From positions 1 through 57,633 of the forward strand of contig JAJDUG010000070.1 in assembly GCA_022826755.1 (NCBI GenBank): a DNA stretch of 57,633 bases, written 5' to 3'. This stretch comes from Acidobacteriota bacterium. GTDB taxonomy: Bacteria; Acidobacteriota; Terriglobia; Versatilivoradales; Versatilivoraceae. This document shows, piece after piece, positions 49,595 to 53,662 of this stretch. A program made the position numbers and the translations under genes. How positions within the stretch are numbered: the stretch's first letter is position 1; each line of letters opens with the position of its first letter. Below the pieces are notes generated by a model. It was not told the DNA's origin, ran no database searches, and saw only the letters and a program-made list of their open reading frames with translations.

Positions 49595-49748
49595 TGGCCG
49601 TGATAACTGGAAACTGGCGCGAATCAGGAGCCTTACCGGAGCCGCCCCGTGGAATCCAGCGCGAGAACCCGGAGTTCTGGAAAACTTCTGAAACTTTCCC
49701 CCTGCTTGTGGGTTATTGAGAAGATGGTCGGGCGAGACGTTGAGGGCA

Positions 49749-50291
49749 ATGACCGGTGCCACCGCATTTGAGGCGTTCGTTCGCAAGTACCAGGACATGG
49801 TATTCGGTACTGCGGTCCGGTTGCTGGGAGACGAAAGCGAGGCTCAGGACGTGTCCCAAACCGTGTTTCTAAAGGCTTTTGAACGGTTCGACCAGTTGGG
49901 CGAGAGCCCCTCGACCGGAGGATGGCTCAGAACCGTGACCACCAACCTCTGTCTGAACCACCTGTCCCGATTCCGGGCCCGCTGGCGCCTGTTCAGTCAG
50001 AGGCGACCCGGCGAGTCCGAAACGGAACCGGGTTATGAAGAACGGCTGGTGGCGAGAGGCTCACTGCAAGCGGACCTGGAACGGGCCCAGGAACATGCCC
50101 GCCTGGAGAGGGCCGTCCGCCGCCTGCCGCGGCACCAGCGGGTGCCCCTGGTGCTGTTTCATTTCGAGGAGAGAGGCTACGCTGAGATCGCCCGACTGCT
50201 GGGAGTTTCGCTGGGCAAAATAAAGACCGACATTCACCGGGGGCGAGAGACCCTACGGAAACTGATGGTGACGGATGATGAAACCCTCTGA
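49749..50291 (+). CDS. Sigma-70 family (ECF-like) RNA polymerase sigma factor
   Basis: A 180-aa two-domain sigma factor. Region 2 spans about 10-75 ('YQDMVFGTAVRLLGDESEAQDVSQTVF') and region 4 about 120-172 ('RRLPRHQRVPLVLFHFEERGYAEIARLLGVS' in part, then 'KIKTDIHRGRETLRKLM'). I chose ATG 49749; TTG codons at 49716 and 49740 are alternatives. It overlaps the next gene, a membrane protein, in the layout typical of ECF sigma and its anti-sigma. Confidence 0.9.
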   Translation: MTGATAFEAFVRKYQDMVFGTAVRLLGDESEAQDVSQTVFLKAFERFDQLGESPSTGGWLRTVTTNLCLNHLSRFRARWRLFSQRRPGESETEPGYEERLVARGSLQADLERAQEHARLERAVRRLPRHQRVPLVLFHFEERGYAEIARLLGVSLGKIKTDIHRGRETLRKLMVTDDETL

Positions 50292-50730
50292 TCTGGAACC
50301 TCTCATTCACCGAAAGCTGGCGGAGCTGCCGGCTCCGAAAGCCCCCAAGACGCTGCTGCCCCGAATCATGGCCGAGGTGCGCCGAACCCGGCGGAGCCCG
50401 AGGAGCCAACATACCTGGATTGGTGGGGTCTGGCAGCGGCCGGCCATCCGGCTGTTTGGGTGGGCTGCACTGATCCTTCTGGGGGTCCTTGCCGTGGACT
50501 GGAGCTCCGGCGCCAGGGTTGGAAGCACCTGGGCCGTTTTCCTGACGACCGCGGAAGAAGCCGCCATCGGCGCTGGGGCTGTGTTGCGCGAGGCACGGGT
50601 CCTCTGGCGTGTATTTTTGGAACCCATTGCCGCTTACCTGGTTCTGTGGGTCAGCGCCATGTGGGTCTTGTTTGCACTGCTCTGGGAGGCACTCAGGAGC
50701 GTGCTCTGGGAAGGGAGCGTCCAACAATGA
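50278..50730 (+). CDS. Membrane protein, putative anti-sigma factor
   Basis: 150 aa from ATG 50278 (an ATG at 50275 is adjacent). The N-terminal cytoplasmic part ('DLEPLIHRKLAELPAPKAP') is short, followed by hydrophobic segments near 58-76 and 118-138. There is no HxxxCxxC zinc motif, so it is not a classical ZAS anti-sigma. The role is inferred only from overlap with the sigma gene start-to-stop and membrane topology. It overlaps the following gene by four bases (ATGA). Confidence 0.6.
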   Translation: MKPSDLEPLIHRKLAELPAPKAPKTLLPRIMAEVRRTRRSPRSQHTWIGGVWQRPAIRLFGWAALILLGVLAVDWSSGARVGSTWAVFLTTAEEAAIGAGAVLREARVLWRVFLEPIAAYLVLWVSAMWVLFALLWEALRSVLWEGSVQQ

Positions 50731-52226
50731 AGACGAACTGGCAAATATTGGCAGTATTGGGAGTCACGCTGGGTCTGGCAACCAGCGTCGGAGCGGTTCA
50801 AGAAGCCGCAGCGCCATCAACGCCCGAACCACCCGTTGAGGTTGATGTCGAAATGGATATCGATATCGACGTCGACGGTGAGGTCGTTCAGATCGGACGA
50901 AGCTACACCCTCTCTGCCGGCAAGCGGGTCGAGAGCGCAGTCGTAATCGCGGGCACCGCTCGCATTGAGGGAACAATAGACCAGGATCTCGTAGTGGTCG
51001 CCGGAGCGGCGACCCTTGCCGGCACCGCCCGCGTCGGCGGGGACGTTGTCGTGGTAGGCGGAACAGGCGACGTCCAACCTGGAGCCGTGGTTGGCGGAGA
51101 CCTGGTGGCCGTGGGCAGTGGCTTGAAGGTGCCTCCCGGGTTCTCCCCGGGAGGAGACCAGGTCTCGGTCGGCGCCTTTGCCTTGGGAGACCAGGTGGCG
51201 AGTGCCGTTCCATGGCTCACTCGAGGATTGCTCTGGGGCCGGCCGATAGTACCCGATCTCTCCTGGATGTGGGGTTTCGTGGCCGTTTTCGCGCTCTTGT
51301 GCCTGCTCATCAACCTGGTGTTCGACGGGCCGGTGCGGGCCTGTGTGCACACGCTCGACGGGAAGCCATTGACCACCGGGCTGACCGGATTACTGACGCT
51401 TCTTCTGATCGCACCCGTGTCATTCATCCTGACGGTTTCGGTAATCGGACTGGCGCTGGTTCCCTTCCTGTGGTTCGCTCTTCTGATCGCCGGCCTCATC
51501 GGCAACGTGGCCGCCGCTCGCTGGATCGGAAGCCGGGTTCTGCCCGAGGAGTCGCCGCACAACCGTCTGCAGACCGCGCGGTCGGCAGGAATCGGCCTGG
51601 TTGCCATCATCCTGGTCGGCATGGTTCCGGTCGCCGGCCTCACCGCCTGGGCCCTGGTGAGCCTTCTCGGCCTGGGAGCGGCCGCCACCGCGCTGGCTGC
51701 CGGCTTGAGGCGCGAGAATCCCCCCGCGCCGACACCACCGCCGCCCACCGCCGAGTCGGGAAGCGACACCTCCAGCGGCGCTGCTGCCGAGCCCTCCAGC
51801 AGCGAAACGGCGCCGGCGGCGTCCCCGCCTCAGGGTGAGAACCTCTCATCCTTTCCGCGGGCCACTTTTCTCCGGCGGCTGGGAGCCCTGCTGCTCGACC
51901 TCTTGCTGGTGACGGCAATCACGCTGGCGTTCTTCGAGATACACCCGGGCAGATCCTTTGTCCTGCTGCTGGTCTATCGGGTGGCGCTCTGGAGCTGGAA
52001 AGCGACCACCGTGGGGGGCATCATCTGCGGTCTGCAGGTGGTTCGGATGGATGGGAAGCCCCTCGCCTTTACCGATGCGCTGGTGAGGGGACTGGCCAGC
52101 ATCCTGTCGGCGGTGGCCGCGGGACTGGGTTGGCTCTGGATCCTCTGGGACCCCGAGCGACAGGCCTGGCACGACAAGATTGCGGGAACCGTGGTGGTGC
52201 GGGTCCCGGCCGGCCGGCCGCTGTAG
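50727..52226 (+). CDS. Bactofilin/polymer-forming domain fused to RDD membrane domain
   Basis: A 499-aa exported/membrane protein from ATG 50727. Signal at 1-22 ('ILAVLGVTLGLATSVGA'). A Val/Gly-rich bactofilin-like repeat region (about 65-145: 'DLVVVAGAATLAGTARVGG', 'VVVVGGTGDVQPGAVVGGD') is followed by four or more membrane helices (about 165-330). A Pro/Ser/Ala-rich linker (330-370) precedes an RDD-like C-terminus ('RRLGALLLDLLLVTAITLA', 'WHDKIAGTVVVRV'). Third gene of the sigma factor operon and a likely regulatory target. Confidence 0.8.
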   Translation: MKTNWQILAVLGVTLGLATSVGAVQEAAAPSTPEPPVEVDVEMDIDIDVDGEVVQIGRSYTLSAGKRVESAVVIAGTARIEGTIDQDLVVVAGAATLAGTARVGGDVVVVGGTGDVQPGAVVGGDLVAVGSGLKVPPGFSPGGDQVSVGAFALGDQVASAVPWLTRGLLWGRPIVPDLSWMWGFVAVFALLCLLINLVFDGPVRACVHTLDGKPLTTGLTGLLTLLLIAPVSFILTVSVIGLALVPFLWFALLIAGLIGNVAAARWIGSRVLPEESPHNRLQTARSAGIGLVAIILVGMVPVAGLTAWALVSLLGLGAAATALAAGLRRENPPAPTPPPPTAESGSDTSSGAAAEPSSSETAPAASPPQGENLSSFPRATFLRRLGALLLDLLLVTAITLAFFEIHPGRSFVLLLVYRVALWSWKATTVGGIICGLQVVRMDGKPLAFTDALVRGLASILSAVAAGLGWLWILWDPERQAWHDKIAGTVVVRVPAGRPL

Positions 52227-52860: not shown

Positions 52861-53343
52861 TCAGGCGTCACCATGGCCTTTCGCCACGTAGTGCGCTTCC
52901 ACGATCTCGTGGGGTTGCTTGTCGGGTGATGCGAACGGGTCGACTACCCGGACACTGTCGAACACCTGGCCTGACTGCAAGTCCTCGGTCAGGAGAATGG
53001 AGCATTGGCGGGCCTGCGCGGCGGCGACGATGAGTGCGTCCCACCAGGAGATGGCATGGCGCTCCTGCACCTGCTACGCACGCTCCAGGATTCCAATTTC
53101 GATGGGGAGCGGCTGCCATGCCGACAATAACTGTACGATCCTGCGGGCTTCTGCAGGGTCGAAGTTCAGCTGCGGTCGTGTGAGGGTGGCATAGAGTTCC
53201 TGGAGTACTTTATAGCTCAGGCGACCGGCGCGATTGCGGGCAAGGAAGGCGATCCACTGCTCGGCGCGAGACTGTTTCTCCGGCACCGAGTTGTCATGGC
53301 GGTAGACGAAGACGTTGGTGTCAACGAAGACCGGGCCGGTCAT
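52861..53343 (-). pseudogene. PIN-domain (VapC-like) toxin interrupted by an amber codon
   Basis: The PIN ribonuclease fold is in one reading frame but has TAG at 53076-53074. The upstream half (89 aa) carries the first catalytic Asp ('VFVDTNVFVYRHD') and 'AEQW'. The downstream half (69 aa) has the remaining acidic residues ('SWWDALIVAAA', 'LLTEDLQSGQ') and could start only at an internal codon. There is no frameshift, only the stop. It overlaps the antitoxin gene by 23 bases, the usual VapBC layout. The toxin is probably inactive unless the stop is suppressed. Confidence 0.8.
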
Positions 53344-53563
53344 AGAGTTCCTCCCGGGTCGGCCGGCGGTCGTTCGGCCAATCGATCTTGCGCGGCTTCA
53401 TCGCCAGGTACCGCTTCATGGCGGACTCGTACTGATCTTCCTGGCTCCGCATCCGTTCCAGCAGCTCGGCCAGCCATCGGGAAACACTGCGATCGTCCTT
53501 GGCCGCCTTGATGCGCAGCCAGCGAGCCAAATCCTCCGGCAAGGTGATGGTGACGTTCTTCAT
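53321..53563 (-). CDS. Ribbon-helix-helix (VapB/CopG-like) antitoxin
   Basis: 80 aa from ATG 53563, beginning MKNVTITLPEDLARWLRIKAAKD, a typical ribbon-helix-helix DNA-binding pattern, with a C-terminal toxin-binding tail ('PRKIDWPNDRRPTREELYD'). It precedes and overlaps the PIN gene. The antitoxin remains intact though the toxin is broken. Confidence 0.85.
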   Translation of the reverse strand: MKNVTITLPEDLARWLRIKAAKDDRSVSRWLAELLERMRSQEDQYESAMKRYLAMKPRKIDWPNDRRPTREELYDRPGLR

Positions 53564-53662
53564 CACGGCCTCCGTTCTATTGGCACGAGAATAATACAGC
53601 ACCAACTTCGTGTCGCTTCCAACGAGAACTGCCTCCTGTGGTGAGGGTGGGCATGCGGCACG

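Follow-up and report, generated by a model that had tools for sequence, protein, structure and literature searches.

Operons of ECF sigma factors often encode effectors, and in the CnrH-CnrY-CnrX system the third protein, CnrX, is a metal sensor. CnrY binds the sigma factor with two helices, the first on sigma4 and the last on sigma2 (PMC7406223). For Toastrack operons with a linked sigma factor, a relay of membrane signals has been proposed in a study that does not mention bactofilin (PMC11237479). The RDD domain is found in VanZ-RDD fusions, in a study that states the role of RDD as unknown (PMC12419801). Our literature search found no paper describing the operon analyzed here and none joining bactofilin with RDD and a sigma factor; queries on ECF and anti-sigma factors returned papers on other matters.

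The window, by which we mean the whole stretch of 57,633 nucleotides analyzed, is one entire contig of an Acidobacteriota genome of 4.6 Mb, which named relatives put close to Candidatus Versatilivorator. Three genes lie head to tail on its + strand at 49749–52226, each overlapping the next, by 17 nt between the sigma factor stop and the start of the middle gene and by 4 nt between the middle gene stop and the start of the third gene (Table 1). The initial annotation had described three coupled genes encoding an ECF-like sigma factor, a zinc-motif-free membrane protein, and a fusion of a bactofilin-like region with an RDD domain. This description was confirmed by the overlapping ORFs, the sigma-70 regions 2 and 4 found by Pfam in the first protein, the lack of Cys and hence of the Hx3Cx2C motif of zinc class I anti-sigma factors in the second, and the RDD match and modeled bactofilin fold of the third, whose bactofilin sequence score was below cut-off. 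The sigma protein matched Sigma70_r2 (PF04542, 6e-13) and r4_2 (PF08281, 1.6e-14) over 180 aa; it consists of regions 2 and 4 only and falls within the ECF size range (about 180–200 aa). PADLOC gave no anti-phage defence match for the region, and a defence role was therefore dropped; Rfam found no structured RNA in the region. On the opposite strand, a PIN-type toxin frame (52864–53343, −) is broken by a single in-frame TAG (53074–53076, codon 90), with its likely antitoxin ORF at 53321–53605 (−).

Table 1 Features of the three-gene operon, given as positions in the window.
Feature	Position	Strand	Details
Putative ECF-type, probably autoregulatory promoter, TGAAACTTT-N12-GGGTT	49689..49714	+	Motif common to both phyla upstream of the sigma gene
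ECF sigma factor gene	49749..50291	+	180 aa; Pfam sigma-70 regions 2 and 4; clade co-occurs with the fusion
Middle gene, candidate minimal zinc-free membrane anti-sigma factor	50275..50730	+	151 aa; translation and hydropathy; kept in all intact trios
Conserved cytosolic motif LEPLIHRKLAELPAPKAPKTLLPRIMAEVRR, proposed sigma-binding element	50293..50385	+	Residues 7–37; alignment
Fusion gene, exported bactofilin-fold/5-TM/RDD protein	50727..52226	+	499 aa; RDD Pfam match, alignment, AlphaFold2
Signal peptide region	50727..50798	+	Residues 1–24; hydrophobic segment 5–25; A-x-A|QE-type cleavage sites in orthologues
Beta-solenoid, bactofilin fold	50865..51173	+	Residues 47–149; pLDDT about 92; bactofilin structural match
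Membrane domain, five TM helices by our reading	51261..51716	+	Residues 179–330; model pLDDT about 95; hydropathy and charge
Disordered linker in Pro/Ala/Ser-rich stretch	51759..51833	+	Residues 345–369; pLDDT below 50
RDD membrane domain	51867..52202	+	Residues 381–492; Pfam RDD 411–487; R384, D391, and WHDK..GT conserved

With a probability of about two in three, the trio is in our reading an ECF circuit for envelope stress that is self-contained and autoregulated, in which the anti-sigma factor is minimal and an exported solenoid/5-TM/RDD protein acts as sensor and/or effector. It is probably a conserved self-regulating switch that serves to sense or counter envelope damage.

The initial annotation had made its reading depend on co-conservation of the genes in relatives, and the trio is indeed linked in both Acidobacteriota and Verrucomicrobiota, the phyla sampled for the linkage counts. 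In the window's genus, the fusion was found in six of the seven genomes searched, including the window's own, with one copy split across two contigs; the seventh genome, a fragmented assembly, gave an RDD-only match. The sigma and middle genes were present in the genus wherever the contig extends upstream of the fusion. Without correction for the relatedness of the genomes, a full-length fusion was present in 16/396 sampled Acidobacteriota genomes from seven families and in 18/288 sampled Verrucomicrobiota genomes, the latter with the sigma and middle genes immediately upstream in 18/18. Two further Acidobacteriota carriers, representing one additional family, lie outside the 396-genome count. 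When the same 396 genomes were searched with the sigma profile alone, the sigma clade was recovered in 15, namely the 16 fusion genomes minus G187, whose operon (L059) looks degenerate. L059 is the sole Acidobacteriota fusion lacking an intact sigma gene, and a sigma N-terminal remnant lies directly 5′ of the truncated fusion in a deletion-like arrangement. The main clades of the sigma and fusion trees (41 loci) were congruent, with a Mantel r of 0.86 that was reached in 0/2000 permutations. Because orthologous trios recur in two phyla, the arrangement is, as judged from these genomic comparisons, well beyond chance. Separately, locus L025 (G028) carries a more remote form of the module, in which genes in a row encode a different ECF sigma factor, a TM protein that is anti-sigma-like and zinc-free, and a bactofilin-like membrane protein without RDD.

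A TGMAACTTT-N12/13-GKGTT-like site lies directly 5′ of the sigma gene and is common to the fusion-clade loci listed (n = 28) from both phyla; positions 2, 5, 6, and 7 (G, A, C, and T) of its −35 part are invariant among them. Going by this conservation, the sigma factor probably transcribes its own operon from the ECF-type site. The sister operons, in which the third protein lacks RDD, have other promoter motifs, of the CGAAAC..CGTA or GGAACC.. types. A strict genome-wide search matched in five genomes of the genus, with a single site, at the operon, in each of four (G000, G001, G003, and G004) and one site more than the operon's in the fifth (G005); the window's genome has one strict site in its entire 4.6 Mb. 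One-mismatch searches in the genus gave counts close to those of a reversed-pattern control, and inspection of these sites, mostly located in or across coding frames, revealed no convincing extra targets. A wider regulon in the genus was rejected with the one-mismatch sites near background. Since nearly all strict sites were single and the one-mismatch counts were near the control, the detectable regulon in the window's genus amounts, at the level of sequence, to little more than the operon.

In Verrucomicrobiota, a slightly looser pattern was used, again with the reversed pattern as control, and yielded 42 sites versus 5 in 19 carriers (88 Mb) and 5 sites versus 10 in 10 non-carriers (45 Mb). 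The sites often lie 8–60 nt ahead of the linked gene, and the same putative promoter precedes envelope genes other than the operon: MacB/FtsX permeases (MacAB-type), HlyD-type adaptors, an ABC ATPase, an AIM24 protein and, in one genome, a Toastrack DUF4097 gene. Two small membrane proteins were also linked to it. The first (MKTFLK..., ~90 aa) recurs in about ten genomes, starts about 8–12 nt past the TGMAACTT promoter at eight loci, and showed no Pfam family in the two members tested; the second begins MKTAL.... Some sites fall within coding sequence or ahead of unrelated genes, and some linked genes were seen in a single genome only. The recurrent theme among these genes, which come mostly from Verrucomicrobiota and not from the window's genus, suggests envelope maintenance and points to envelope stress.

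Within the proposed circuit, the fusion would sense an envelope disturbance and relieve the anti-sigma factor, and/or would be a protective output once the sigma factor is free. A serious competitor, to which we give somewhat less than even odds, is that the fusion is an output only, stabilizing the envelope with no sensing role, and that the anti-sigma factor itself reads the signal, for example through regulated proteolysis. Effectors are frequent in ECF operons, a function in the membrane is suggested by the RDD and 5-TM parts, and the Verrucomicrobiota linked genes resemble envelope effectors; however, the near-absolute one-to-one linkage with the sigma clade and the congruence of the two trees are tighter than expected for a dispensable effector, and the middle protein has a loop of only about 35 residues between its TM regions, which leaves little room for a sensor. 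The envelope-stress circuit with a sensor and/or effector fusion also has a narrower version, which we regard as possible but rather doubtful. Here, the exported bactofilin fold would be the sensing head of a receptor (5-TM and RDD) controlling the ECF sigma factor through a new minimal class of anti-sigma factor, a helix-PxxAP-helix element derived from zinc anti-sigma factors that lost the zinc finger and can be duplicated in tandem.

The middle protein has no Pfam match. Its translation and hydropathy predict a basic cytosolic N-terminus and two TM regions (residues 55–78 and 113–141), and in the alignment its conservation is centered on L..LP...AP..L..RVMA.V.RR, ahead of the first TM helix. 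In six Verrucomicrobiota loci, the cytosolic element (~44 residues) is present twice in tandem. The middle slot of the sister operons is occupied by a canonical Hx3Cx2C anti-sigma factor, in which the zinc motif is followed by L..L...PP.DF..AVM.RV and TM helices. By hhalign, the middle protein and the juxtamembrane segment of the sister zinc anti-sigma factors aligned weakly (P 4e-4, probability 35%), and the NCBIfam antisigma model scored 18 bits on the middle protein versus a cut-off of 100. Its length and TM layout fit a class II (CnrY-like) anti-sigma factor. Because it takes the same operon slot as the zinc anti-sigma factor of the sister operons, the middle protein is likely an anti-sigma factor. 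By analogy with CnrY, we infer a stripped-down form reduced to two helices and tethered to the membrane by two TM helices, whose helix-PxxAP-helix cytosolic element of ~30 residues would grip sigma4 and sigma2 in the manner of the two CnrY helices. It is unlikely, in our judgment, that the protein is instead a membrane partner of the fusion, with the sigma factor controlled transcriptionally or by another protein. The want of a family match above cut-off and the weak profile similarity to zinc anti-sigma factors would accord with such a partner, but the canonical zinc anti-sigma factor in the same slot of the sister operons carries a similar motif before its TM helix, and the N-terminus of the middle protein is basic and cytosolic with conservation concentrated in the cytosolic motif, which argues for an anti-sigma factor.

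The third protein matched Pfam RDD (PF06271) at 1.2e-16 and 61.7 bits (cut-off 24.1), and R384 and D391, the signature Arg and Asp of RDD, are invariant in the fusion alignment (43 homologues). By contrast, it scored 14.2 bits against Pfam bactofilin (PF04519), below the 27.9 cut-off, and only six of 15 homologues reached the bactofilin profile at E 1 or better. An AlphaFold2 model built with 43 homologues had a mean pLDDT of 81; an earlier model from 15 sequences was poor (pLDDT 62). Foldseek returned nothing significant for the earlier model and no match at E 0.001 for the better one; therefore, the bactofilin match rests on a second-look aligner, VIA-align, which superposed the solenoid on Thermus bactofilin (6rib, Z 12.2, rmsd 1.9 Å, 83 residues; 6ria, Z 12.1), with the next unrelated solenoid at Z 8.7. 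A sequence search of solved structures gave nothing meaningful. According to the model, the solenoid has a bactofilin fold. Because a signal peptide and an odd number (five) of TM helices precede the cytosolic linker, the prediction places this domain on the outer side of the cytoplasmic membrane, away from the cytoplasmic location of bactofilins, and the five TM helices and the disordered linker inside would join it to RDD. The fold is thus that of bactofilin, but the predicted location is unlike that of a cytoskeletal bactofilin. Three genuine bactofilin domains (80–89 bits) are encoded elsewhere in the genome, on contigs C23 and C38, two of them near each other on C23. The predicted RDD domain (window 51867–52226) also resembled the membrane-spanning portion of a subunit of a peroxisomal ubiquitin ligase (7t92_B; 125 residues at Z 10.1 and rmsd 3.4 Å), from which no claim is made because helical bundles reach such Z values by chance.

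The initial annotation had suggested sensing of envelope or cytoskeleton state, of which the envelope part is strengthened by the promoter-linked genes of Verrucomicrobiota; a cytoplasmic cytoskeletal bactofilin polymer reporting to the sigma factor, for which the fold of the solenoid would speak, is highly improbable and was rejected given the orthologue signal peptides with A-x-A sites, the odd number of TM helices before the cytosolic linker, the Pfam bactofilin score far under cut-off, and the genuine bactofilins elsewhere in the genome.

For RDD and for exported bactofilin-fold proteins, both of them membrane modules that are poorly understood, the envelope-stress circuit would provide a regulatory context, one that is common to two phyla with few studied signaling systems. 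The middle slot presents a natural series from a zinc anti-sigma factor to a stripped, sometimes duplicated element. With a named promoter and linked genes, the circuit can be put to a direct test in cultivated Opitutales.

In layout, the operon comes nearest to CnrH-CnrY-CnrX of Cupriavidus metallidurans, with its class II anti-sigma factor (PMC7406223). In each case a single operon encodes the ECF sigma factor, a very small anti-sigma factor (here a candidate) that is zinc-free and tethered to the membrane, and an exported third protein, and the two helices with which CnrY binds sigma4 and sigma2 have a proposed cytosolic counterpart here. The third protein here is a bactofilin-fold/5-TM/RDD protein, unlike the metal sensor CnrX, and the short motif, unlike CnrY, appears tied to a lineage of zinc anti-sigma factors and is able to occur in duplicate. 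The order of sigma factor, membrane anti-sigma factor, and exported solenoid membrane protein is shared with ECF systems having zinc class I anti-sigma factors (RsiW/ChrR type), among them five sister operons; by contrast, the window's clade lacks the zinc finger, the sister third proteins lack RDD, and the promoters differ. Like the bactofilins (PF04519; Thermus 6rib/6ria), the domain behind the signal peptide is a beta-solenoid, with 83 residues superposed at Z 12.2, but it differs from them in its predicted export behind a signal peptide, its fusion to TM and RDD parts, its sub-cut-off Pfam score, and a C-terminal end that runs into the membrane. Closest in theme are the Toastrack/PspC/Lia envelope-stress modules of the PSP group (PMC11237479), which likewise link a transcription regulator to a membrane protein bearing a beta-rich exported domain, whereas the domain exported in the operon analyzed here is a solenoid with the fold of bactofilin and not a Toastrack domain. 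As in VanZ-RDD fusions (RDD family PF06271; PMC12419801), an RDD membrane domain is joined to other envelope domains, but here it is fused to a bactofilin-fold protein with five TM helices, in a sigma factor operon.
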